Below, piece by piece: positions 32,718-50,425 of a stretch of DNA of 64,000 nt (position 1 is the first letter of the stretch; each line of letters opens with the position of its first letter). The stretch lies in assembly GCF_008728635.1 (NCBI RefSeq), contig NZ_CP044285.1, positions 3,286,001-3,350,000 on the forward strand, given 5' to 3'. The notes beneath the pieces were generated by a model. That model had not been told where the DNA came from. It ran no database searches and was given only the letters and a program-made list of their open reading frames with translations. The stretch is from Hymenobacter baengnokdamensis (GTDB lineage Bacteria > Bacteroidota > Bacteroidia > Cytophagales > Hymenobacteraceae). A program made the position numbers and the translations under genes.

Positions 32718-34034
32718 TTAGATGTACTGGTTGATGAGGCTTTCGAGCCACTCCTGCTTGCCGCTGCGGGGCGTGGGCTCGCCGTGCTCGTGCGCGATTT
32801 TGCGCAGGTCTTCCAGCGTGAGGCGGCCCTGGGCGAAATCGGCCCCGTGGCCCGTATCAAACGAGGCGTAGCGCTCGGTGCGAAACTTCCGGTAGCCGGA
32901 CTTGGTCAGGATATTATCGGCCGTTACCAGGGCGCGGGCAAACGTGTCCATGCCCGAGATGTGGGCCACGAAAATATCCTCCAGGTCGGTCGAGTTGCGG
33001 CGGGTTTTGGCGTCGAAGTTGATGCCGCCGTGCCGGAAGCCGCCGTGCTCCAGGATGATGAGCATGCTCTCGGTCAGCTCGTTGAGGTTGTTCGGGAACT
33101 GGTCGGTGTCCCAGCCGTTCTGGTAGTCGCCCCGGTTGGCATCCATCGAGCCCAGCATATCAGCATCGGCGGCTACTTGCAGCTCGTGCTGGAAGGTGTG
33201 GCCGGCCAGCGTGGCGTGGTTCACTTCCAGGTTGAGCATAAAGTCTTTATCCAGGCCGTGCTCCTTCAAAAAGCCGATAACGGTGGCCGCGTCGAAGTCA
33301 TACTGGTGCTTGGTGGGCTCGGCCGGCTTGGGCTCGATAAAGAACTTGCCTTTAAAGCCCTGCTTACGGGCGTAGTCGCGTGCCATCGTCAGGAACTTAG
33401 CCATGTTGGCCTGCTCGCGCTTCATATCGGTGTTGAGCAGGGTCATGTAGCCCTCGCGGCCACCCCAGAACACGTAGTTTTCGCCGCCCAGCGCGATGGT
33501 CGCGTCGATGGCATTCTTCACCTGGGTGCCGGCGTGGGCCACCACCGCAAAGTCGGGGTTGGTGCTGGCGCCGTTCATGTAGCGCGGGTTCGAGAACACG
33601 TTGGCCGTGCCCCACAGCAGCTTCACGCCGGTCTCCTGCTGGTGCTGCCGGGCATAGTCCACGATGGTGCTCAGGTTGCTTTCGTACTCGCGCAGCGAGC
33701 TGCCCTCCTCCACCAGGTCAATGTCGTGAAAGCAATAGTAAGGCGTGCCGAGCTTGGTAAAGAACTCAAACGCCGCGTCCATCTTGTCTTTGGCGCGGCC
33801 GATAATTTCGGGGTGCGCGTCCCAGGCAAACTTCTTGGTGCCGGGGCCAAACGGGTCGCCGCCCGTGCCCACGAAGGTGTGCCAGTAGGCCGTAGCGAAG
33901 CGCAGATGCTCCTTCATGGTTTTGCCGGCCACCACGCGGCTTTCGTCGTACCACTTAAAGGCCAGGTGGTTGTCAGAGTCGCGGCCTTCGTACTTTATCT
34001 TGTCAATGCCTTTAAAAAATTCCTGGTTAGCCAT
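32718..34034 (-). CDS. xylA: Xylose isomerase
   Basis: A 438-residue enzyme converting D-xylose to D-xylulose. Visible features are [13 protein letters not shown] with the active-site His, [18 protein letters not shown], the metal-binding [16 protein letters not shown] and [15 protein letters not shown], and [17 protein letters not shown]. The length and sequence fit the class II long form common in Bacteroidota. ATG 34034 (MANQEFFKG) is chosen; codons further upstream run into the xylulokinase gene. It lies between xylB (43 bp upstream) and a REP-like pair with tkt. Confidence 0.97.
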
Positions 34035-34077
34035 GAGCTGAAGGATGTTAGGGTAGTTGGAAAGTTGATAATTTGGT

Positions 34078-35583
34078 TTACGCCAGCAGCAATTCCGCCG
34101 GCCTGGTTTCGCGGGCCAGCAGCGTCTGCCAGTCCGAGTACGTCTGCTGGTACTGCGCCTGCAGGGCGGGCGTGGGCTCGACGGTGCTGATGCGCACCAA
34201 GCCAGTGAATGCTTCGGCTGCACTGGCATAAATGCCGGCCCCGATGCCCGCGCCGCGCGCCGCGCCCTGCGCCGCGTCGGTGTCGTAGAGCTCCAGCGTC
34301 AGGTTGCCGCAGTTCACGAAAGCCTCGCGGAAAACCGGGCTCAGAAACATGTTGGCGTGGCCGGCGCGCACTTTCTGCACCTGCACGCCCGAGGCGCGCA
34401 TGATGTCCATGCCGTAGTTCAGGGCGTACACGATACCCTCCTGGGCGGCGCGTAATATATGATTTTTACTATGTATATTAAATTGCAGGCCGTGCAGCCC
34501 GGCGGCGGCCGGCCGGTTTTCGAGAATGCGCTCGGCCCCGTTGCCGAAGGGCAAAAAAAGCAGGCCCGCCGCCCCTACCGGAGCCTGGGCGGCCAGCGCA
34601 TTCAGCTGCTCGTAGGGCAGGTCGCCCACGAGTTTGCGCAGCCAGCTATTGAGAATACCCGTGCCGTTGAGGCACATCAGCACGCCGTTTTTGGGCTGCT
34701 CGCGGGTGCTGTTGACGTGCACAAACGAGTTGACGCGCGAGCGCGGGTCAGCAGTGGTGGTTTCGTTGATGCCGTACACCACGCCGCTGGTGCCGCCGGT
34801 GGCGGCTACTTCGCCCGCGTTCAATACATTGAGCGAGAAGGCATTATTGGGCTGGTCGCCGGCGCGGTAGCTGATAGGCGTGCCCGCCGCCAGGCCCAGC
34901 GCCCGGGCGGCCTCGGCGGTGAGCCGGCCCTGCACGGCAAAGGTATCGACCACCTCGGGCAGCAGGTCGGCGCTGATGCCGTAATAGTCGAGCAGCTCCT
35001 GGGCAATAGCCTGCCGCTTGAAATTCCAGAATATGCCTTCCGACAAGCCCGAAACCGTGGTTTGCAGCTGGCCCGTGAGTTGGTAGGCGAGGTAATCGCC
35101 GGGCAGCTGAATCTTATGGATTCGGGCGTAAATCTCCGGCTCGTTCTCGCGCACCCACTTCAGCTTGGAAGCCGTGAAGTTGCCGGGCGAATTCAGGAAG
35201 TTTGCCAGGCAGAACTCCTCTCCCAGCCCGGCAAAAGCCTGGTTGCCGATTTCCACGGCGCGGCTGTCGCACCAGATAATGGCGGGGCGCAAAACGCGGC
35301 CGGCCTGGTCGAGCAGCACCAGCCCGTGCATCTGGTAGGTGATGCCGATACCGGCCAGCAGCGTGGCATCGAAGCCGTAGGCGGCCCTGAGCTGATGGGT
35401 GGCATTGATAACTTCCTGCCACCAGCGCTCGGGGCGCTGCTCGGCCCAGCCGGGCTGGGGCACGGCGATTTCCATCTCGGTGTGGGGCGAGGTCACGGCC
35501 GCCACGCACCGGCCGGTAGCGATGTCGAGCAGCGAAGCTTTGATGGAAGAGCTACCGATATCGTAGCCGAGGAGGTATTTCAT
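34078..35583 (-). CDS. xylB: Xylulokinase (FGGY family)
   Basis: A 501-residue kinase making xylulose 5-phosphate. The N-terminal phosphate-binding stretch is [17 protein letters not shown], then [23 protein letters not shown] with the substrate-binding Asp, and the C-terminal ATP-binding [11 protein letters not shown] and [14 protein letters not shown]. The length is right for XylB. FGGY kinases can be confused with gluconate or ribulose kinases, but its position directly before xylA settles the role. ATG 35583 (MKYLLGYD) is chosen. A long xylan operon is read through it. Confidence 0.94.
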
Positions 35584-35659
35584 AAGGCAGAGCAACAGCC
35601 GGGGCCGCGCCGGAATGGCTAGCGCGAAAGCGGGGATAACTGGTATAAAACGGGCTAAC

Positions 35660-39344: not shown

Positions 39345-41105
39345 TTAGTAACCCGGATTCTGGGTGATTTTGCCGCTGGTACGGTCAACCTCAGTTTGCG
39401 GAATGGGCCGCAGCACGTGGAAGTCCTTAATGTTGATAGCGGCGTTGGAGCCATACACGCCGCCTTTGGTAAAGCCGGTGGTAACGGCCGTCAGCGGGGG
39501 CGAATAGCTGGTATTGCGCTCCCGCACCAGCAGCTGGCCGGTGCGCTTGAGGTCGTACCAGCGCGTGAACTCCCCGCACAGCTCGCGGGTGCGCTCGTTG
39601 AGGATGAAGTCGAGGGTTACCTGAGCGGCGGTGATGTCCATCGCCGCCTTTTTGCCGCTGGCAGCGGCGCGCTCCCGCACCACGTTGAGGTACGTGGCGG
39701 CCTGGGCTGCATTCCCCAGGTAGTAATACGCCTCGGCCGCTATCAGGTACGTTTCGGCCAGGCGGTAGATGATGTTGGGCCGGGTCGAAAAGCCGTTGAC
39801 AGAGGTACGGCTGCGCGAGTCAAACTTGTTGAGGGTCGGGAAGTACTCGGTGGTGTACTGGCTGGGAGTTATTACCACGTACGGCACGGGCTGGCGGGCG
39901 GCAATCTGGGCCAGCTTGGCGGCCGATAATTCCCGGCCGGGGTACCAGGCGGCGGTGTCGCCGGCTACTGCCTTGGTGCTGCCGGCGTTGCCGCCGGGCG
40001 AGTTTACCAGGTACACCGTCGTAAACCACTTGTTGTAGCGCGCGTCGGTGGTGCGCAGCTGCGCGCCCGACTCCAGGGCGTTGCCATTGGCATCGCGCAG
40101 GATGTAGGAATCTTCCAGATAGTGCGTGACGCAGTGCCGGGCAAACGGCCGGCCGTTGTTAACGTCGCGCACCATGTTGGGCAGCTTGTCGTAGCGGCTG
40201 CGGTACTGGAAGCCCAGCACGTTTTCCCCGCCAAACGTGAAGCCGTCGATGCGATTAAAGGTTGCGTCGCCGCTGAACTGCACGTTCATGATAACCTCCT
40301 TGCCATTCTCGTTGCCTTCGGCAAACACGGTGGCGGGGTCCGTTTCCAGGCCCAGGCCGTAGCGGCCCTGGTTGTCAATCAGCTCCTTGGCATACTTGGC
40401 GGCATTGGTGTAGTCGTCGCTTTGCTTGGCCGAGGAGGTAGCGCGGGTCAGGTACACTTTGGCCAGCAGGTGCAGGGCCGTGGCGCGCGTTACGCGGCCG
40501 GGCTGGGCAGGCTTGTCGGCAATGGTGCCCAGGGCATCGGTCAGGTCCTTGATAATCTGGGTGTACACATCGGCCAGCGGGGCCCGCGTGATGTCCTTGG
40601 TGGGCGAGTCCACGAAGCTCAGCATCAGGGGCACGTCGCCGAAATCCTGCACCAGCACGAAGTAGTACTGCGCCCGCAGCAGCTTGGTTTCGGCCACCAG
40701 CTGCGTAATGCGGGCCGGCGTCAGCCCCTGCACCGTGGCCGAGTACTGCAACACGCCGTTGGCGGTGTTGATGGCCGAGTAGCACGTGCTCCAGATAAAG
40801 GAGTGCGAGCCATCGTTGACCGGGGTCAGGGCCGAGGGGTCGTAGTCGCTCAGGCCACTGCTGGCCGTGATGCCGTTGGTCCACTGGTCGGTGCCGGCCT
40901 CGGTGGTAAAGGTCGAGGCATCGTTGCCATAAACCTGGCGCAGGGCCGAGTATACGCCCGTTACGCCCGCCTCTACCCCCTGCGAGGTGCTCAGGAAGGA
41001 GGGCGTCAGGATGGAGGTCGGGTTTTCGTCCAGAATGTCCTTTTTGCAGCCGCCGGAGGCCAGCAGCAAGGACGCTCCAATGCTTACTAATACTATCTTT
41101 TTCAT
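39345..41105 (-). CDS. SusD/RagB-like outer-membrane glycan-binding lipoprotein
   Basis: A 586-residue surface lipoprotein forming the lid of the SusCD importer. The lipobox is in LLLASGGCKKD. The usual SusD order follows: DENPTSILTPSFLSTSQGVEAGVTGVYSALRQVYG, the TPR helices (RAQYYFVLVQDFGDVPLML), and the C-terminal RLAETYLIAAEAYYYLGNAAQA with NERTRELCGEFTRWYDLKRTG. The start is ATG 41105. It follows susC by 56 bp, as is typical, and is followed by a strong stem-loop. The ligand is inferred to be xylo-oligosaccharides from the enzymes around it. Confidence 0.96.
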   Translation of the reverse strand: MKKIVLVSIGASLLLASGGCKKDILDENPTSILTPSFLSTSQGVEAGVTGVYSALRQVYGNDASTFTTEAGTDQWTNGITASSGLSDYDPSALTPVNDGSHSFIWSTCYSAINTANGVLQYSATVQGLTPARITQLVAETKLLRAQYYFVLVQDFGDVPLMLSFVDSPTKDITRAPLADVYTQIIKDLTDALGTIADKPAQPGRVTRATALHLLAKVYLTRATSSAKQSDDYTNAAKYAKELIDNQGRYGLGLETDPATVFAEGNENGKEVIMNVQFSGDATFNRIDGFTFGGENVLGFQYRSRYDKLPNMVRDVNNGRPFARHCVTHYLEDSYILRDANGNALESGAQLRTTDARYNKWFTTVYLVNSPGGNAGSTKAVAGDTAAWYPGRELSAAKLAQIAARQPVPYVVITPSQYTTEYFPTLNKFDSRSRTSVNGFSTRPNIIYRLAETYLIAAEAYYYLGNAAQAATYLNVVRERAAASGKKAAMDITAAQVTLDFILNERTRELCGEFTRWYDLKRTGQLLVRERNTSYSPPLTAVTTGFTKGGVYGSNAAINIKDFHVLRPIPQTEVDRTSGKITQNPGY

Positions 41106-41161: not shown

Positions 41162-44100
41162 TTAGAAGCCCAGGTTGACGCCGACAATAAAGGCGCGCGT
41201 CACGGGGTAGTTGGCCCCAACGCCGGCCAGGCCGGCCGAGCTGCTGTTGGGGTTGCCGCCCGTAAACTCGATACCGCCCGCCGTACCCACGTTTGCGGCG
41301 TTGAAGCGGCTGGAGTACGAGAGCGCGTCGGGGTCGATGGCCTTGTTGTCCTTAAAGAAAGGGTCTCGGGCCCAGATGAGCGGGTTCTGAACCTGCACGT
41401 AGATGCGGGCGCTGCTCATGAAGGCCGACTTGGCCCAGGCCGCCGGGATGGTATAGCCCAGGTCGATGCTCCGGACTTTAATAAACGTGCCGTCGCGGTA
41501 AGCCAGGGTCTGGCCGTAGGTAGGCCATTCGTTGGCGCGGGCCGACTGGTCGGGCTCGGGGTAGGTATTGCTGGGGTTGGTGGGGGTCCAGTAATCGAGG
41601 TTTACCTGGTTGCGGCGGCCGGTGTTGGTGGTGAAGTAGGCGGGCCCGAACAGCGTCGGGTCAACCACGGTGGCTCCTACGCGGGTGAGCGCCACGGCCG
41701 TGAGGTCGAAGCCCTTGAAGCGGAAGCGGTTGGTGAGGCCGGCCTCAAACTTGGGCTGGCGCGAGCCGATAACCACGCGGTCGCTGGCGTTGATAACGCC
41801 GTCGCCGTTGGTGTCCTGAATCTTAATCTGGCCGGGCTTCGAGTTGTACTTCTTGGCCTGGTCGGCCTCGGAGGTCTGCCAGATACCCAGGTTTTTGTAG
41901 TCGTAGATAACGTAGAGCGGCTGGCCGATAAAGCGCTGGTTGCCCACGTCGCTCAGCTCGTTGCCGTTGGCATCGGTGCCCAGGCCCAGCGACAAAATCT
42001 TTTCCCGGTTCAGGGTGAAGTTCCAGTCGGTGTTCCATTCAAAGCCATCCGGGTTTTTGGGCCGAATATTCACCGTCGTCAGCGAGATTTCGAGGCCCCG
42101 GTTCTGGGTCTGGCCGGCATTGCGAATGAAAGAGGTGTAACCGCTGGCGGCGGGCAGGGCATCGGGCAGCAGCAGGTCGCTGGTGCGCTGCTGGTACACC
42201 TCTACGCTACCCGTGATGCGGTTTTGCAGAAAGCCGAAATCGAGGCCGAAGTTGGTGGTAGTAGTGTATTCCCAGCCCAGGTTCGGGTTCGGGATGCCAG
42301 TAGGCACTACGCCGATGGCGCCGGTCGAGCCGTAGTTGTAGTAGCCCGACCCAATGCCGGCCGACAGCAGGCCCAGCGTCTGGTAGGGGTTCACGGCGGT
42401 GCTGCCCACGCGGCCCAGGCTGGCGCGCAGCTTCAGGGTGCTGAGCCAGTCTTTACCCTGCATAAAGCTTTCATTGGCAATGTTCCAGGCGAGGGCCCCC
42501 GAGGGAAACGCCTTGTACTTGTTGCCCGGCGCCAGGCGCGACGAGCCATCGGCGCGCACGGTCACGGTGGCCGAGTAGCGGTTGTCGTAGGCGTAGTTCA
42601 GGCGGGCCATGTAGGAGAGAATGTCCCACTGCTGCGCGGTGCTGGTGGTCGAAACGGGCGTGCCGGCGCCCATGTTGTTGTCGAGCTGGTAGTTGGTGGG
42701 CAGGTTGCGCACCGAGGCATAGAAGCCATCGTAGTTGTACTGCTGGGCGCTGTAGAGGCCGGTAAAGCCAATCGTATGCTTGCCAAAGGTGTTGTTATAG
42801 AGCAGCAGGTTTTCGGCCAGCAGGTTGAAAGCCAGGTTGGTAGAGCGCTGAGCGGTGCTGGGTCCGCCGCCGTTCTGGGGGGTATTGGAGGCGTAGAACT
42901 GGCCATTGTTTTCCGAGCGCGCATCCAGCCCCAGGTTCAGGCGGTAGTCCAGCCCTTTCAGGATATTCACCTGGCCGTAGAGGCTGTTGAAGGTACGCAG
43001 GCGGCGGTTCTGGTCTTTGTGCGCGTCTTGGGTATAAAGCGTCAGCGGGTTAGCACCCGCCGTATCCGTGTTCGGAAACAGCACGGGCAGGCCGTTAGCA
43101 TCATAGGCCGAAGCCAGCGGACTGGTCGTCAGAATCTGGTAGAGGATGTTGATGTCCGGGTCGTCGGCCACGGTGTAGGTATTGAGCGAGTTCACGCCCA
43201 CCTTGATGCGCTTGCCAATCTGCTGGTCGAGCGTTGCCCGCAGCGAGTAGCGCTGAAAGCGCTGCACCGGCACAATGCCCGACTCGTCGTAGTAGCCCAG
43301 CGAAGCCGAGTACTGCGTCTGGTCGGTGCCGCCGCTCACGCCCAGCACGTGGTTCTGGATGTGGCCGTTCTGGAAAAGCAGGCTCTGGTAGTCGGTTGTT
43401 TTGCCGGCCGCGTAGTTGGCCCGCTCGTCGGTAGTCAGAAAGCTGGGGTTCGACGGGTCGAAGTTCGGGTTCTGGGCCTTGTAGGCTTCGAGCTTGTAGT
43501 TGTAGTACTGCTGACCGTTTTGCAGGTCGTAGCGGCCATAGAGCTTTTTCAGACCCGCGTAGCCGCTGTAGGTGGCGCGGGGCGCGCCGCTTTTGCCGTG
43601 CCGGGTCGTGATGAGGATAATGCCGTTAGCCCCGCGCGAGCCATAGATGGCGGTCGCGCTGGCATCCTTGAGCACTTCGAGCGAGGTAATGTCGTCGGGG
43701 TTCAGGTCGTTGAGGCTGCCATCGTAGGGCACCCCGTCAACCACCAGCAGCGGGTCGTTGGAGCCCGAGATGGAGCGGTTGCCCCGGATGCGGATAACCG
43801 GCGACTGCCCCGGCGTGGTGCTGGAGCTGGAAACGGTGATACCGGCGGCGCGGCCCTGCAGGGCCTGGCCCACGTTGGCCACCGGCACGTCGCGCAGCTG
43901 CTCGTCGCTCACCGTCGAGATGGCGCCCGTTACCTGGCTTTTCTTCTGGGTGCCGTAGCCCACAATCTGCACCTCATTCAGGGCCTGGGTTTCGGGTACC
44001 AGCTGCTGGCTCAGGCTGGTGCGCTTGCCCACGGCAATCTCCAGCTTGGTGAAACCCACCGAGCTGAATACCAGGATGCTGTTATCGTCGGGCACGGTCA

Positions 44101-44347
44101 CGTTGTAGTTGCCGTTTACGTCGGTGGTAGCCCCGGTGGTAGTGCCTTTTACCACTACCGTCACACCGGGCAGGCCTTCGCCGTTGTCGGAAGTGATTTT
44201 GCCGGTAACGGTGTGGGCACCAGCTACCTGGGCATAGGCTACCTGTGGTGCCAGCGGAGCGAGGCTGCCGCTGAGCAGCAGCATGGGCACCAGGCGCGAC
44301 CATTTCCAGCCCTTCGGTGGGCAAGAAGTGCGTATGCGTGTGTTCAT
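41162..44347 (-). CDS. SusC/RagA-type TonB-dependent outer-membrane transporter
   Basis: A 1061-residue TonB-dependent receptor that imports oligosaccharides with SusD. After the signal (about 1-40) comes a carboxypeptidase-like domain (VTGKITSDNGEGLPGVTVVV), the TonB box region near VGKRTSLSQQL, the plug with GYGTQKKSQVTGAISTVSDE and PLLVVDGVPYDGS, and a 22-strand barrel ending in a terminal Phe (GVNLGF). The SusC signature GSRGANGIILITTRHGKSG is clear. The longest non-coding gap in the operon (135 bp) lies before it, so a second promoter is possible, though I found no good box there. Confidence 0.97.
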   Translation of the reverse strand: MNTRIRTSCPPKGWKWSRLVPMLLLSGSLAPLAPQVAYAQVAGAHTVTGKITSDNGEGLPGVTVVVKGTTTGATTDVNGNYNVTVPDDNSILVFSSVGFTKLEIAVGKRTSLSQQLVPETQALNEVQIVGYGTQKKSQVTGAISTVSDEQLRDVPVANVGQALQGRAAGITVSSSSTTPGQSPVIRIRGNRSISGSNDPLLVVDGVPYDGSLNDLNPDDITSLEVLKDASATAIYGSRGANGIILITTRHGKSGAPRATYSGYAGLKKLYGRYDLQNGQQYYNYKLEAYKAQNPNFDPSNPSFLTTDERANYAAGKTTDYQSLLFQNGHIQNHVLGVSGGTDQTQYSASLGYYDESGIVPVQRFQRYSLRATLDQQIGKRIKVGVNSLNTYTVADDPDINILYQILTTSPLASAYDANGLPVLFPNTDTAGANPLTLYTQDAHKDQNRRLRTFNSLYGQVNILKGLDYRLNLGLDARSENNGQFYASNTPQNGGGPSTAQRSTNLAFNLLAENLLLYNNTFGKHTIGFTGLYSAQQYNYDGFYASVRNLPTNYQLDNNMGAGTPVSTTSTAQQWDILSYMARLNYAYDNRYSATVTVRADGSSRLAPGNKYKAFPSGALAWNIANESFMQGKDWLSTLKLRASLGRVGSTAVNPYQTLGLLSAGIGSGYYNYGSTGAIGVVPTGIPNPNLGWEYTTTTNFGLDFGFLQNRITGSVEVYQQRTSDLLLPDALPAASGYTSFIRNAGQTQNRGLEISLTTVNIRPKNPDGFEWNTDWNFTLNREKILSLGLGTDANGNELSDVGNQRFIGQPLYVIYDYKNLGIWQTSEADQAKKYNSKPGQIKIQDTNGDGVINASDRVVIGSRQPKFEAGLTNRFRFKGFDLTAVALTRVGATVVDPTLFGPAYFTTNTGRRNQVNLDYWTPTNPSNTYPEPDQSARANEWPTYGQTLAYRDGTFIKVRSIDLGYTIPAAWAKSAFMSSARIYVQVQNPLIWARDPFFKDNKAIDPDALSYSSRFNAANVGTAGGIEFTGGNPNSSSAGLAGVGANYPVTRAFIVGVNLGF

Positions 44348-44482: not shown

Positions 44483-45319
44483 TTAGAATCCGATGGAATT
44501 GCCACCGTCCACGGGCAGCGACACGCCCGTGATGTAGCGCGCGCCCTCCGAGGCCAGAAACACGGCGGCGTGGCCGATATCGGCGGGGCGGCCAAACTCG
44601 CCCATCGGCGTGCGGCGCATGGCGCGGTCGCGGCGGTCGGGGTCCGAGTTCATGGCGGTGCGGCTCATCTCGGTTTCGATAAAGCCGGGCGCGATGGCAT
44701 TCACGCGCACGTTGTGGCAGGAAAACTCGGAGGCCAGCACTTTCACCATGCCCTCCACCGCCGACTTGGACGCCGCGTAGGCCACCACGCGGTCGATACC
44801 GTAGTAGGCGGCCATCGACGAAATCATGAGAATGGTGCCGCTGCGCCGGGCTACCATGCGCCGGGCCGCCGCCCGCGTGAGCGAGAACACGGCGTTGAGG
44901 TTGGTCTGGATAATGCGGTCGAACTCCTCATCGGTGACCTCTAGCGCCGGCTTTTTCATGTTAATGCCCGCGTTGTTGACCAGAATATCGAGCGGGCCAT
45001 ACCCGGCCTCTACCTGCGCCACGAGGTCGTCGAGCGAACTCAGGTTACATATATCATTTACTATATATTCAGCCCCCTTTCCCAGCTCGGCGGCCGACTC
45101 CCGCAGCACCGCCTCGCGGCGGCCGGTAATGACGACAGTAGCCCCGGCCTGCACCATGCACCGGGCTATTTCGAGGCCGATGCCGCTGCCGCCGCCCGTG
45201 ATGAGCGCCACCCGACCGGCCAGTGAAAACACGTTGGGCTGGGGCGCGGGCGTGGCAGTCGGGACCGGGCTGGCGGCCGAAGCCGGATGGCCGTTCGCAG
45301 ATAGTATCGAAGTATTCAT
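44483..45319 (-). CDS. uxuB: SDR oxidoreductase, probable D-mannonate oxidoreductase (fructuronate reductase, YjmF type)
   Basis: A 278-residue classical short-chain dehydrogenase. The cofactor motif is GGGSGIGLE near residue 43, NNAGIN follows, and the Ser-Tyr-Lys catalytic set is in ISSMAAYYGIDRVVAYAASKS. The C-terminal VSLPVDGGNS is typical. The first 30 residues are a Pro/Ala-rich extension. Its role is inferred from position between mannonate dehydratase and alpha-glucuronidase: it would reduce fructuronate to mannonate. Bacillus UxuB (YjmF) is also an SDR, unlike the polyol-dehydrogenase UxuB of E. coli. Gluconate 5-dehydrogenase-like activity is the main alternative. Confidence 0.72.
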   Translation of the reverse strand: MNTSILSANGHPASAASPVPTATPAPQPNVFSLAGRVALITGGGSGIGLEIARCMVQAGATVVITGRREAVLRESAAELGKGAEYIVNDICNLSSLDDLVAQVEAGYGPLDILVNNAGINMKKPALEVTDEEFDRIIQTNLNAVFSLTRAAARRMVARRSGTILMISSMAAYYGIDRVVAYAASKSAVEGMVKVLASEFSCHNVRVNAIAPGFIETEMSRTAMNSDPDRRDRAMRRTPMGEFGRPADIGHAAVFLASEGARYITGVSLPVDGGNSIGF

Positions 45320-45351
45320 GAGCAGGATAATGACGAGCTGAATAGGCGGAA

Positions 45352-47472
45352 TTATTTGAGCTGGTAGAGCTGAACGAGCTGCTTGATGTCGGCCAGTGAG
45401 CGGGTAGGCGGGGCCAACGGGGCCGGAATCGGCTGCCGGGCCAGGGTCTGGAAGTAGAGCACGCAGGCATCGCGCCACCACAGAGCTTCCCTGCGCTGGA
45501 TTTGGAGGCGGGTCGCCACGTCGGCGTACAGCGCCGGGTCGAGGGCGGGCCGGGCGGCGGCCCACTGCTGCTGCATCCACCGCACGGAGTCGGCCCCGGT
45601 GTAGTAGCGGGTGCACAGCTCGTTCCAGAGCGTGCGGCCGGTGCTGAGCGGCTGCCGCCACGCCACATGGTGAAACCAGAGCAGGTAGTTGAGCGGGCAG
45701 GTGCGGGGGTTGCCCCACTGCTGCTGCACCTCGGGCTTGTAGAGCGCCAGGGCGTTGCTGCCGGTGGCCGTGCGGTCGAAGCCCAGGCCGCTGGAATCGG
45801 CCTTGTGGTAGTACACGGCCGTCCAGTCGGGGCGGCCGGCCTGGGCCAGCCACGGCTGCGGGCCGTAGTGCAGGCTCTCGCCCATAATGTGGTGCAGCCC
45901 CAGCGGCGTGGTGTAGCGCACGTAGATGCTGCGCGACTGCCCCAGCACGCGGGTAATGGTGCGCACGGCGGCCGGCTCGGTGGTCAGGGTCATGCGGGTC
46001 CACTCCTGGGCAATGGCCTGCGCGCTGAGCGTGTGGTCCCAGGCCAGGCGGCCGAAGGCGTACCAGTTGGCCTGCCCCACGGGGTGGCCGGTCCAGTTGC
46101 GGTCGGCCCCGATATTGGCCACGCCCGCAATGCCGCTGAGCGCGTGCTGGTCCAGGCTGCCATCCACTACCCTGGCCACCGTCGAGCCTTTGCCCTGGGC
46201 GTAGGTATCGGCTTCGAGGCATTCTTTGATGAGCGGGGCCAGGTACACCAGGTGGGTCGCAAAGCCTAAATATTCCTGAGTCAGCTGCACTTCGAGCAGC
46301 AGCGGCGTGCGCGGCATGGCCCCAAACAGCGGGTGAAACGGCTCGCGGGCCTGGAAGTCAATCGGCCCGTTTTTTACCTGCACCAGCACCTTGGGGTCAA
46401 ACTTGCCGTCGAGGGGCTGAAACTCCTCGTAGGCTTCCTTAAACCGGTCGCCGTTGCTGTTGGCTTTATACACGAAGGCGCGCCACATCACCACGCCGTC
46501 GTGGCGGCCCAGGGCGTGGGCCAGCATGTTGGCCCCGTCGGCGTGGGTGCGGTGGTAGTCCTGCGGACCAGGCTCGCCCTCCGAGTTGGCTTTCACCAGG
46601 AAGCCGCCAAAGTCGGGGATAGCCTGGTAAATCTCGTCACTCTTGGCGGACCACCACTGCTGCACGGCGGGGTCGAGCGGGTCAGCCGTGGGCAGCCCCC
46701 CAATAACTTTGGGCGCGGCCCATAGCACCGAGAGGTACACCCGGATACCATAAGGCCGCATCACCCCGGCCAGGGCCGCCACTTTGGCCAGATAGTCGGC
46801 CGAGAGGTAGCGGGCGCTGGCATTCACATTGTTGAGCACTACCCCATTAATGCCAATCGACGCATTAGCGCGGGCGTAGTCGGTATAGCGCGGGTCGAGC
46901 CGCTCGGGCAGCTCATACCACTTCCAGATAGACGAGCCGGCGTAGCCGCGCTCCACGGTACCGTTGGGGTTATCCCAGTGGTTGAGCAGCCGAAAACCAA
47001 TGCGCGGATTGCTGGCGATGCTAAGCCCGGCCAGTGGCTGGCGGGTCTGCACCTGCCGCAATAGCGCAAAAGCCCCATATAGCACGGCCGCGTCGGTACG
47101 CCCCGTAATAACCAGGTTATTTTTCTCCGAAAAAATACGGTAGCCTTCGGGCTTCAAGGACTGGCCGTTGGCGCGGGCCGCTTTATCGACGCGCAGCACA
47201 ATGCCGCCCGTGCGGGTGCCCGGCGCCGCCAGTATGGGCACGGCCTGGCCCAGCAGGCTGCTTAGCCCGCGCTGCAATTCGGTGCTGGCGGCCCGCAACA
47301 CCGGCGAAGCACCGGGGCTGGCAATAAACTGCGCGGCCCGCTGGTACTGCTGGCGCGTCGGCGCGTCGGCAATCCGGTCGTACTTCAGCCACAGCCGGTA
47401 GCCATCGTCGGCCCGGCTGGGAGCCACGGCCGAAACGAGCAGCAAAAGCAGGAACACGCTGCGGAGCAACAT
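45352..47472 (-). CDS. GH67 alpha-glucuronidase
   Basis: A 706-residue exported enzyme that removes (4-O-methyl)glucuronic acid from the non-reducing terminal xylose of short xylo-oligosaccharides. A signal (MLLRSVFLLLLLVSAVAPSRA) leads to an N-terminal alpha/beta domain, then the barrel, with RLLNHWDNPNGTVERGYAG, FLVKANSEGEPGPQDY, and LLEVQLTQEYLGFATHLV, all GH67 signatures that include catalytic acids. A C-terminal helical domain (after 480) contains HHIMGESLHYGPQPW. Acts downstream of the GH10 xylanase. It lies 40 bp after uxuA. Confidence 0.96.
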   Translation of the reverse strand: MLLRSVFLLLLLVSAVAPSRADDGYRLWLKYDRIADAPTRQQYQRAAQFIASPGASPVLRAASTELQRGLSSLLGQAVPILAAPGTRTGGIVLRVDKAARANGQSLKPEGYRIFSEKNNLVITGRTDAAVLYGAFALLRQVQTRQPLAGLSIASNPRIGFRLLNHWDNPNGTVERGYAGSSIWKWYELPERLDPRYTDYARANASIGINGVVLNNVNASARYLSADYLAKVAALAGVMRPYGIRVYLSVLWAAPKVIGGLPTADPLDPAVQQWWSAKSDEIYQAIPDFGGFLVKANSEGEPGPQDYHRTHADGANMLAHALGRHDGVVMWRAFVYKANSNGDRFKEAYEEFQPLDGKFDPKVLVQVKNGPIDFQAREPFHPLFGAMPRTPLLLEVQLTQEYLGFATHLVYLAPLIKECLEADTYAQGKGSTVARVVDGSLDQHALSGIAGVANIGADRNWTGHPVGQANWYAFGRLAWDHTLSAQAIAQEWTRMTLTTEPAAVRTITRVLGQSRSIYVRYTTPLGLHHIMGESLHYGPQPWLAQAGRPDWTAVYYHKADSSGLGFDRTATGSNALALYKPEVQQQWGNPRTCPLNYLLWFHHVAWRQPLSTGRTLWNELCTRYYTGADSVRWMQQQWAAARPALDPALYADVATRLQIQRREALWWRDACVLYFQTLARQPIPAPLAPPTRSLADIKQLVQLYQLK

Positions 47473-47512: not shown

Positions 47513-48736
47513 TTAGCGAGCCGCAGCAGCGGCCGGGGCAGCCTCTTCGGCCGCCGTCAACGTGCGGCGCAGGCCATATTCGAGGCCGCGCAGCTCGGCC
47601 AGGCCGCGCAGGCGGCCAATGGCCGAGTAGCCGGGATAGGTTTTCTTGGGGAGGTCGTCGAGCAGCTGGTGGCCATGGTCGGGCCGCATGGGCAGGGCGG
47701 TTTTTTCTTCGCCCGCCGCCTCGCGGCGCAGCTCTTCGCGCACCAGCGCCTGCACCACTGCGTACATATCCACGTCGCCGGCCAGGTGGTCGGCCTCGTG
47801 GAAATTGCGCGGGTTGGCCTCACGCCTGGTGCTGCGCAGGTGTACAAAGTGAATGCGCGAGCTGAAGCGCCCGGCCATGCCGGCCAGGTCGTTGTCGGGC
47901 CGCACGCCCAGCGAGCCCGTGCAGAACGTCAGCCCGTTGGCGTGCACCTCACAGGCCGCCAGCAGGCTGGCCAGGTCGGCCTCGGTGCTTACCACGCGGG
48001 GCAAGCCCAGCAGCGGAAAAGGCGGGTCATCGGGATGAATGCAGAGGCCAATACCCACTTCTTCGGCCACCGGCGCCACCTGCCGAATGAAATAGTGCAG
48101 GTTGGCCGTAAGGGCCGCCGCACCAATCGTCTGATACTCATCTAGCAAGCTTTGGAAGCCTTTCAGCTCAAAGGCCTCCTCTGAGCCCGGCAAGCCCAGC
48201 AGGGTGGTGTTGGTGAGCTGGGCCACGGCCTCGGCGCTCATGGCGGCAAACTGCCGGCGGGCGACCTCGGCCACGGCGGGCTCGTAGTCGGCCTCCGCGC
48301 CGGGGCGCTTCAAAATGCACAAGTCAAACACGGCAAAGTCCTGCCAGACGAAGCGTAGCGCCCGCGAGCCATCGGGCATTTCGTAGCGCAAATCGGTGCG
48401 CGACCAGTCGAGCACTGGCATGAAGTTGTAGCACACCGTGCGGAGGCCGCAGGCGGCCAGATTACGCAGCGACTGCTGATAGTTTGCTATATACTGTTCG
48501 CGGCTGGGCCGGCCTTTCTTAATGTCCTCATGCACCGGCAGGCTTTCTACTACGGCCCAATGCAGGGGCGAATGCGTAGCGTTGGCGGCCTCAATAAGCT
48601 GCTGCCGGGCCCGGATGTCGGCCACCGGCCACACGGCCCCTACCGGCAGCTGGTGCAGGGCCGTCACGACCCCGGCGCAGCCGGCCTGGCGGATATCGAA
48701 AAGCGAAACCGGGTCGTTCGGCCCGAACCAGCGCAT
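47513..48736 (-). CDS. uxuA: Mannonate dehydratase
   Basis: A 407-residue Fe2+/Mn2+ enzyme making 2-keto-3-deoxygluconate (KDG) from D-mannonate, the third step of glucuronate catabolism. Visible marks are [19 protein letters not shown] at the start, [40 protein letters not shown] with metal ligands, [18 protein letters not shown] with the ligand Cys, [12 protein letters not shown] and [15 protein letters not shown] near the C-terminus. It is the first gene of the xylan locus, divergent from the LacI-type regulator, with 321 bp between. ATG 48736 is chosen for family fit. Glucuronate isomerase is not in the window. Confidence 0.96.
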
Positions 48737-48849
48737 AGTGTGCAGCACGACAGCTCTATAAGAAAAGTACAAATTCAAGCTTACCACAACAACCCGGAAT
48801 ACCTATCTCCGGCATCGTCGCAACCTGTAAGCCCCAGTGGAAACTGAGC

Positions 48850-48920: not shown

Positions 48921-48954
48921 CTATCGGTAACGTTTCCGGAAACGTTACCGATAG
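48921..48954. promoter_or_regulatory. Perfect 34-bp palindrome, probable LacI-family operator
   Basis: Each half reads CTATCGGTAACGTTTCC toward a central CG, the centre type used by LacI-family dimers. The palindrome is twice the usual operator width. It lies 2 bases upstream of a TATTTG box for the regulator gene and 185 bases upstream of the uxuA start. Confidence 0.8.
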
Positions 48955-49057: not shown

Positions 49058-50236
49058 ATGGTTAAATGTGTTAAGTGCAGCCTTGCCGACGACGTGATGA
49101 AAGCGGGCTTTGTGCGGGGTCGCCAGCGCTTTTTCTGTAAAGCCTGCGAGTACCATTTCACGGCTGAAAAGCCACCGGGCGGCCCTAACCGCAAGCGCCA
49201 CCAGGCTACTATTGCCGACGTGGCCCGGCAGGTAGGCGTGGCACCCTCCACGGTGTCGCGGGCGCTCAACGGGCATTCCGATATCAGCCCGCTCACGCGC
49301 CAGGCCATTCTGGAGGCGGCCCAGCAGCTCGACTACCAGCCCAACCTCCTGGCCCAAAGCCTGAAAAACCAGGCTACCCATACCATCGGGGTGCTCATCC
49401 CCGACCTGGAGCGGCCATTTTTTGCTACGGCCGTGAGCGGTATTCAGCAGGTGGCAACCAAGGCCGGCTACCGGGTCATGATTTGCCAGTCGAAGGAGTC
49501 GTACGAGGCCGAAGTCAGCAACGTGCAGGCCCTGATAGCCAGCCGGGTCGATGGCCTGCTGATTTGTCACTCGCGCGAAACCGAGAACTTCGACCACGTA
49601 AAAGACCCGGCCCGGCGCGGTATTCCGGTGGTGCATTTCGACCGGGTGTGCAACGAAGTGAACAGCGCCAAAGTCATTCTCGACGACCGCCTCGGGGCCT
49701 TTACCATTACCGAGCACCTGATTGAGCAGGGCTGCCGCCGTATCGCCATTCTGGCCGGGCCGGCGTCGCTGCTCATCAGCCGGCAGCGGCAGGCGGGCTA
49801 CCTGAGCGCACTCCGCAAACACGGCCTGCCCACCGCTGAGGAGCTATGCGCGCACATCGATTTTCGGCCCGCTTCGGCCGTAGCGGCCCTCGATACCTGG
49901 CTGGCGCTGCCCAAGCCGCCCGACGCCATCTTCGCCATCAACTACACCAACGCCTTCGATTTGCTGCTGGCACTTAAGCAGCGCGGCATCCGGGTGCCCG
50001 AGGATATGGCCATCGTGGGCTTCGGCGACGAGTTTCTGGCCAGCCTCATTGAGCCCGGCCTGACTACGGTCAATTTGCACCCCTTCCGCATCGGTCAGCA
50101 GGCGGCCAGCCTCTTCCTGGAGCAAATGGCGCAGAAAGAAGATTTCCAACCGCGTACCTGCGTGGTATCCAGCGAGCTGATTATCCGGCAGTCGTCACTG
50201 AAGGGCAAGGGTGAGAAACTGAAAGTGCTGGTGTGA
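49058..50236 (+). CDS. LacI-family transcriptional regulator with N-terminal zinc ribbon
   Basis: A 392-residue regulator, likely a repressor of the divergent xylan/glucuronate operon. Residues 1-35 form a four-cysteine zinc ribbon (C4, C7, C27, C30; CVKC, then RGRQRFFCKAC), of the kind at the start of IS1-type InsA and other transposase proteins. A basic linker follows, then the LacI helix-turn-helix at about 50-71 (TIADVARQVGVAPSTVSRAL) and hinge (YQPNLLAQSLK). Residues 105-375 are a periplasmic-binding-type effector domain (IGVLIPDLERPFFATAVSGI). Typical LacI proteins are about 340 residues and start at the helix-turn-helix. The inducer could be glucuronate, fructuronate or mannonate. ATG 49058 precedes the ribbon directly. 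Confidence 0.93.
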   Translation: MVKCVKCSLADDVMKAGFVRGRQRFFCKACEYHFTAEKPPGGPNRKRHQATIADVARQVGVAPSTVSRALNGHSDISPLTRQAILEAAQQLDYQPNLLAQSLKNQATHTIGVLIPDLERPFFATAVSGIQQVATKAGYRVMICQSKESYEAEVSNVQALIASRVDGLLICHSRETENFDHVKDPARRGIPVVHFDRVCNEVNSAKVILDDRLGAFTITEHLIEQGCRRIAILAGPASLLISRQRQAGYLSALRKHGLPTAEELCAHIDFRPASAVAALDTWLALPKPPDAIFAINYTNAFDLLLALKQRGIRVPEDMAIVGFGDEFLASLIEPGLTTVNLHPFRIGQQAASLFLEQMAQKEDFQPRTCVVSSELIIRQSSLKGKGEKLKVLV

Positions 50237-50252
50237 GCGAATAATATAACCA

Positions 50253-50425
50253 AAACAGAACGTCATACTGAATGCAGTGAAGCAACTCTACTACCCCGTT
50301 AGCATTCCTAACCTACTGGCGTGGCAGAGCTGCTTCACTGCATTCAGGAGCTTCTAAAAAGCTGTTTGGGTTAGCGCTGATGGCGCGGGGCTCTGCCCCG
50401 TGCCATCGGTGATGACGTTCTGTTT
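50253..50425. repeat. Composite palindromic element with GTCAT(A)CTGA arms and a nested hairpin
   Basis: AAACAGAACGTCAT (50253-50266) matches ATGACGTTCTGTTT (50412-50425), and CTGAATGCAGTGAAGCA (50268-50284) matches its complement at 50331-50347. The right arm is interrupted by 64 bp (50348-50411) that contain their own hairpin, GATGGCGCGGGG with CCCCGTGCCATC. It fills the convergent gap after the regulator. Confidence 0.75.

Follow-up and report, generated by a model that had tools for sequence, protein, structure and literature searches.

LacI proteins are textbook repressors, and the specificity of the family is described as that of one helix-turn-helix (HTH) reading a palindrome of 16–22 nt. 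The locus described here, located in a 64,000-nucleotide stretch of the Hymenobacter baengnokdamensis genome that was analysed as a whole (the window), raises the question of what a transposase-type zinc ribbon does when it is placed in front of such an HTH. The initial annotation of the gene proposed that the ribbon extends operator recognition; we evaluate this proposal from the protein, its putative operator, and its relatives in other genomes.

Ribbon and repressor

The repressor gene and its predicted parts are:
49058..50236, plus strand: ribbon-LacI repressor gene, a complete ORF of 392 aa with an ATG start
49067..49165, plus strand: zinc ribbon, residues 4–36, CX2CX19CX2C (NF050000, 29.0 bits; AlphaFold2 strands)
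49166..49207, plus strand: basic linker between ribbon and HTH, residues 37–50, probably flexible (pLDDT <50 at residues 38–47)
49208..49345, plus strand: LacI helix-turn-helix domain, residues 51–96 (PF00356, 58.3 bits, cutoff 27)
49376..50197, plus strand: effector-binding domain of the periplasmic-binding-protein type, residues ~107–380 (PF13377, 119.6 bits; PF00532; Foldseek)

The CxxC pairs (C4, C7 and C27, C30) and the RGRQRFFCKAC stretch described in the initial annotation are both present in the ORF, and its placement of the LacI HTH at about residue 50 agrees with the Pfam match. By its HTH and effector-binding domain the repressor is a member of the LacI/GalR family, and the best Foldseek matches of the whole repressor are RbsR, CcpA, and PurR. 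AlphaFold2 models the whole protein (mean pLDDT 85.5) as a three-stranded ribbon (strands at residues 13–19, 22–27, and 32–35; block pLDDT 83–92 for residues 1–30), followed by a low-confidence tether at residues 38–47 and then the HTH; the hinge helix (residues 97–103) is predicted with pLDDT <50, having been modelled without DNA. The isolated ribbon adopts the same fold as in the whole protein (mean pLDDT 80.3), and in these models it is an independently folding unit on a low-confidence tether. From the fourth cysteine to the HTH this tether spans 18–22 residues in 18 aligned family members.

The ribbon matches NF050000, the NCBIfam model of the IS1/IS1595 N-terminal zinc-binding domain, at residues 4–36 with a score just above the cutoff of 28 bits, rising to 34.3 bits when the first 49 residues are searched alone; PF03811 (Pfam Zn_ribbon_InsA) matches the same stretch with 12.7 bits, below its gathering score of 26.1. 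NF050000 also detects the ribbon in each of the 18 aligned family members (E ≤ 0.01), in keeping with the original assignment to the IS1 type, and C4, C7, G17, R20, G21, Q23, R24, C27, and C30 are invariant among them. Zinc binding by the ribbon is putative, based on the four invariant cysteines. Profile searches detect no catalytic transposase domain in the repressor, the remainder after the ribbon being LacI. The ribbon may derive from an IS element, rather than both descending from a common ancestor.

A translation start after residue 45 would leave the ribbon untranslated. Such a late start is ruled out by the methionine positions: 100/102 of the distinct ribbon genes have a Met no more than six residues before the first cysteine; the interval between the fourth cysteine and the HTH contains an ATG in 9/102 ribbon genes and any of ATG, GTG, or TTG in 27/102. 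The ribbon codons show purifying selection, with a pN/pS of 0.256 at a pS that has already reached 0.72 (pairwise mean for 67 Hymenobacter-type genes, with no correction for the tree). Conservation and pN/pS together rule out cysteines that are ribbon-like by chance.

Nor is the ribbon an oddity of one genome, as shown by its presence in the genus and in other Bacteroidota. Full-length matches (best E below 1e-140) are found in 79 of 120 Hymenobacter genomes, own genome included, and the ribbon is kept in close orthologues, though the gene is missing from 41/120 genomes. The fusion also occurs in other Cytophagales, where the initial annotation suggested looking for it (Siphonobacter, Flectobacillus, and Cytophagales assemblies), in Chitinophaga terrae and Saprospiraceae assemblies, and in many genomes of the family holding Spirosoma, Siphonobacter, and Flectobacillus (membership inferred from named records, some of which are labelled Spirosomataceae). 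With up to four candidates scored per genome, an even sample of the class contains 6/395 genomes with a match from model position 1–2 (E ≤ 1e-90), and the phylum sample returns the same 6/395 (E ≤ 1e-110); an additional class-sample match (G120) begins at position 7 and contains internal stops. Plasmid searches matched 476 records, and among the 15 matches listed one begins at residue 1. No ribbon-LacI was seen outside Bacteroidota in the genomes covered. We consider the fusion to be old and selected. No description of it was found in the literature searched, with subscription journals and preprints outside the scope of that search.

Stand-alone proteins of ~140 aa with the same ribbon and an IS1-like HTH (by eye) occur in several genomes of the order (L324, L326, L329, and L330). 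They have no visible catalytic part and look like domesticated InsA-type proteins.

The putative operator and its neighbourhood

Divergent from the repressor gene is a cluster that includes the following genes:
47513..48739, minus strand: mannonate dehydratase UxuA, divergent presumed target (PF03786, 407 bits)
45352..47472, minus strand: GH67 alpha-glucuronidase, presumed regulon (PF07488, PF07477, PF03648)
44483..45328, minus strand: short-chain dehydrogenase, presumed regulon (PF13561, PF00106)
41162..44347, minus strand: TonB-dependent receptor, presumed regulon, which we take to be of the SusC type (PF07715, PF13715)
39345..41105, minus strand: SusD-type lipoprotein, presumed regulon (PF07980, PF14322)
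34078..35595, minus strand: xylulokinase-type FGGY kinase, presumed regulon (PF00370; XylB 325 bits, below the cutoff of 380)
32718..34229, minus strand: xylose isomerase, presumed regulon (TIGR02630, 675 bits, cutoff 533)

Because the xylose isomerase match starts only near residue 69 of the ORF as listed, translation probably begins further in. On the same strand, the cluster also encodes a DUF5597 protein, a SASA-domain esterase, a transketolase, an arabinofuranosidase, and a GH10 xylanase (Pfam, NCBIfam). By gene content this is a cluster for glucuronoxylan utilization (glucuronate and xylose), and the inducer is thus likely a xylan-derived sugar or a uronate. Behind the repressor gene, positions 50253–50425 hold a MITE-like stretch whose inverted ends match perfectly over 14 nt (AAACAGAACGTCAT) and enclose a 35-nt inverted repeat; it has partial matches at five other places in the genome.

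A perfect palindrome lies between the repressor gene and uxuA, with its dyad 120 bp upstream of the repressor ATG and the layout CTATCG-N22-CGATAG:
48921..48954, no strand: perfect 34-bp palindromic putative operator, halves CTATCGGTAACGTTTCC and GGAAACGTTACCGATAG (genome scan, E 4.9e-10)
48921..48926, no strand: outer arm CTATCG, proposed ribbon contact (arm-ribbon coupling)
48949..48954, no strand: outer arm CGATAG, proposed ribbon contact (arm-ribbon coupling)
48927..48948, no strand: inner LacI core, halves GTAACGTTTCC and GGAAACGTTAC, with a central C-G (armless cores before ribbonless relatives)

Scans of the genome with a pattern allowing up to three mismatches and with a model of 44 distinct sites found this as the only full site, and the next matches to the model are partial (E 0.19 and weaker); a large regulon was therefore not found by whole-genome scans in the organism itself. 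Elsewhere, each ribbon locus listed has a site that matches 23–32 of 32 letters and lies 61–176 bp upstream of the start.

The operators of 59 ribbon loci with distinct flanks were aligned (L073, with too little upstream DNA, was omitted). Folded about the dyad, conservation forms blocks at positions 1–9 and 12–17 with a dip at positions 10–11; position 10 varies yet is symmetric in 42/59 sites, against 18.7 expected. About the two inner AACGTT boxes there is little or no excess of symmetry, the largest value being 35 vs 32.5 expected (61 sites). The central C-G carries 1.75 bits, and the core fits the LacI pattern, while conservation as a whole extends over 34 bp, with arms of consensus (C/A)TA(T/C)CG centred ~14–15 bp from the dyad. 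The ribbon-LacI operator appears to be new: a 34-bp composite site with outer arms.

Outer arms and ribbon across genomes

The 700 bp before each HTH were scanned for (C/A)TA(T/C)CG on both sides of an exact 22-bp spacing, excluding L073 (little upstream DNA), L005 (no match), and duplicates by protein and upstream DNA. Both arms score at least 5/6 in 93/101 ribbon genes vs 17/93 ribbonless relatives, and both are perfect in 80/101 vs 0/93, counts that include many close relatives and few independent changes. In resampled upstream DNA (92 of the 93 ribbonless regions re-extracted), arms of at least 5/6 appear in 8–9% and perfect arms in at most 0.1%; the 17 ribbonless cases, which lie at scattered positions, are thus roughly double what resampling gives. 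Among 21 further genes, with the site defined as the best consensus match and the best arm score per upstream region also computed, a site with arms precedes 6/7 ribbon genes vs 0/14 ribbonless ones.

The misses number 8/101 ribbon genes in the main scan and 1/7 in the 21-gene set. Clear exceptions are L122, L123, L194/L221, and L269, which have no site in front, and L309, which has one arm; in L022, L135, L288, and L291 a site is present with one arm at 4/6 or less. Each genome containing L122, L123, L194/L221, or L269 has a further ribbon LacI gene, and in G116 and G359 a site was seen upstream of that gene. L123 lies on a Hymenobacter tibetensis plasmid (NZ_CP094673.1), is annotated only as a substrate-binding domain-containing protein, and is one of three ribbon LacI genes in its genome.

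At the level of genomes, operator matches (E ≤ 1e-4) occur in 79 of the 120 Hymenobacter genomes, including 77 of the 79 that have a ribbon LacI; the two exceptions among the latter are G078, where the site has diverged, and G094, where the gene is at a contig end. Matches without a ribbon LacI occur in 2/41 genomes (G071 and G072) and are inner cores with one good arm, located before a gene resembling a symporter by eye. Second operators lie 14–30 kb from the repressor gene on the same contig, before a xylulokinase-type gene (one kinase was domain-scanned, the others recognised by their first residues). Among the places listed, taken from matches to a model that includes the arms, both arms are perfect in 18/18.

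Gene by gene, arms and ribbon are coupled. The arms are nearly always present with the ribbon and missing without it, which suggests that the ribbon probably reads them. Of the proposal that the ribbon extends operator recognition, the longer site and its association with the ribbon hold up, with contact between ribbon and DNA being the part that we infer.

Natural changes in the ribbon were examined in two unrooted trees built from the LacI part only, with L004 omitted from both and 12 distant ribbonless rows omitted from the second. The 50-row tree needs two changes of ribbon label and the 59-row tree four, three of them forced by well-supported branches. The Spirosoma-type relatives, mostly ribbonless, group with Siphonobacter-type ribbon genes; because the tree is unrooted, the direction of change, gain or loss, is unproven. 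In the Spirosoma-type comparison a 34-bp site (at least 23/32 letters) precedes 29/30 ribbon genes vs 0/29 ribbonless genes, where L266 and L291 count as ribbon genes (both align from model position 1, and the ribbon of L291 was seen) and the ribbonless L261 is a more distant LacI. Ribbonless Spirosoma-type genes instead have two separate GGGAAYRTTCCC boxes, spaced ~19–22 bp or about two helical turns, in 20/29 (L234–L262) and 11/14 (L292–L302) cases.

Individual loci follow the same division. L233, from a Spirosoma-genus genome that kept the ribbon, has the site CTACCGGGAACGTTCCC-GGTAACGTATCCGATAG; its alignment was counted as having one TAA, although the ribbon and the HTH share a single reading frame. 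Both arms are also found at L311, a ribbon gene that the tree groups with ribbonless ones. In the genome of L300, two genes ~8 kb apart differ in the same way: the ribbonless one has two boxes, and the one with the ribbon has both arms. The ribbonless L303–L305, L108, and L116–L120 have cores like AACGTTTCC-GGAAACGTT but not the two arms. L116–L120, which are ribbonless Hymenobacter relatives, also have AACGTT-like boxes arrayed at 12-bp intervals, e.g., AACGTTACCGGTAACGTTACCGG.

Arms and core are also decoupled. The sites of the divergent ribbon proteins L306–L308 and L310 (identity to the nearer query 42–48%) retain the arms although the core has changed, as in CTATCTACATCCTTTCC-GCAATGGTTACCGATAG of L307, with one mismatch in the left arm; both arms are not kept in L309 (38% identical). 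In L078 the core retains 11/20 letters vs 12/12 arm letters. Eight distinct Siphonobacter-type sites have 2.0 bits at positions 12, 13, 15, 16, and 17 and at core positions 1 and 4, with 0.08 at position 6. The Siphonobacter gene adjoins SusC/SusD-like genes and L222 adjoins others (identified by eye); the arms are therefore not tied to a single promoter.

Proposed mechanism and known systems

The best explanation of these sequence patterns, and one we hold to be quite probable, is that a single dimer reads the arms of the 34-bp operator with two tethered ribbons. One repressor dimer would occupy one operator, its two HTHs and hinge helices reading the central 18–22-bp core like other LacI proteins. 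A tether of ~20 residues places the IS1/IS1595-type ribbon in front of the HTH, from where each ribbon would reach outward and read one 6-bp arm. By LacI geometry, the edge of the HTH is ~6 bp from the arm, a distance that 18–22 residues span easily. With two tethered ribbons on the arms, the operator would be extended from ~20 to 34 bp. The protein presumably represses rather than activates, and an inducing sugar would free the dimer and thereby open uxuA with its downstream cluster and, in the other direction, the repressor gene.

That one dimer fills each site is uncertain because two overlapping 12-bp boxes could be present instead. Two LacI dimers might sit on overlapping GGNAAC-GTTTCC boxes 12 bp apart, the arms reflecting the flank preferences of the outer HTHs and the ribbon having another role; ribbonless relatives do use similar boxes singly or paired, several Siphonobacter-type sites have one strong box and one that is worn, and a degree of association is seen in 2/12 box-pair tests (mutual information 0.25 and 0.20). 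However, the sites are clearly more symmetric than expected around the common centre, with little or no such excess around the box centres (at most 35 vs 32.5), and the ribbonless L104, L089, and L226 have abutting double boxes with no arms beside them. Dimers spaced by 12 bp would, moreover, collide according to the known geometry of LacI. We regard this arrangement as unlikely; an operator made of two independent LacI boxes is disfavoured by the little or no box symmetry excess and is kept as a rival.

Alternatively, the arms could merely accompany the ribbon gene, being either promoter elements or the binding site of a different protein. TAnnTTTG, presumably the -7-like motif of Bacteroidota, is found by the arm on the gene side in 9/93 sites (shuffled mean 2.5) and on the other side in 11/93 (shuffled mean 5.1), usually at a constant offset on each side, but most sites lack it, and the case for promoter elements is weak with the motif in a minority of sites. 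The arms are, furthermore, symmetric, with fixed 22-bp spacing around a LacI core; they are found at other promoters too, and ribbonless relatives, among them the paralogue ~8 kb away (L300), lack them. This reading is very improbable. We give equally little credence to a ribbon that tunes the repressor without DNA contact, by sensing metal or redox state or by mediating protein contacts. Four-Cys ribbons are capable of such roles, and no site could be recognised upstream of a few ribbon genes, but the coupling of arms to ribbon would be left unexplained.

A further reading, which we consider rather likely, is that the transposase-type ribbon has become a portable operator-extension module for LacI: the dimer would read four DNA elements over 34 bp, the LacI core word would diverge along with the HTH as the 6-bp word of the ribbon stays constant, and loss of the ribbon would see the operator rewritten as two separate boxes. 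A second, transposon-type reader would thus be attached to LacI, with operator arms that mirror the presence or absence of the domain, and this would constitute a naturally evolved two-module repressor code. It makes testable whether an IS1-type ribbon reads DNA alone and which word it reads, how a repressor-operator pair evolves upon gain or loss of a domain, and whether ribbons grafted onto other LacI repressors lengthen their operators.

Among known systems, the IS1/IS1595 transposase ribbon (InsA, NF050000) has in common with ribbon-LacI the CxxC...RGxQRxxCKxC signature and the order of ribbon then HTH; ribbon-LacI differs in lacking a transposase domain and in that its HTH and the rest are LacI. 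Searches of the PDB by sequence returned no significant solved relative of the ribbon. Its first PDB match by profile (E 0.019) and by fold (E 0.23) is the DNA-bound Dof structure 8xuf; both matches are too weak to claim kinship, and the spacing is 19 rather than 21. The plant Dof domain (CDF1, PDB 8xuf; CDF2) nonetheless provides a known example of a single four-Cys zinc domain that recognises a short DNA word, with a 4–5-bp motif and a shared RxFCKAC. As described in PMC9477738, Dof binds [T/A]AAAG, needs its four cysteines, and uses residues of CKxCxRYW, in a CX2CX21CX2C pattern vs CX2CX19CX2C in the ribbon. The Dof word AAAG (CTTT) also differs from the proposed ribbon word CTATCG.

The Bacteroides LacI regulators of uronate genes, UxuR, UxaR, and KdgR, by their description in PMC4052901 share a uronate-type regulon with ribbon-LacI. 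The same paper gives motifs of 16–22 nt, mostly even and with a central CG, for 1303 LacI regulators; longer motifs could have been missed because the search it describes was restricted to 14–24 bp. With the LacI/GalR repressors, such as PurR, CcpA, RbsR, and the GntR of E. coli, ribbon-LacI shares the HTH and effector domain, an even palindromic core with a central CG, a site beside its own gene, and a local sugar regulon, but unlike them it has an added N-terminal ribbon and a putative 34-bp operator with outer arms.
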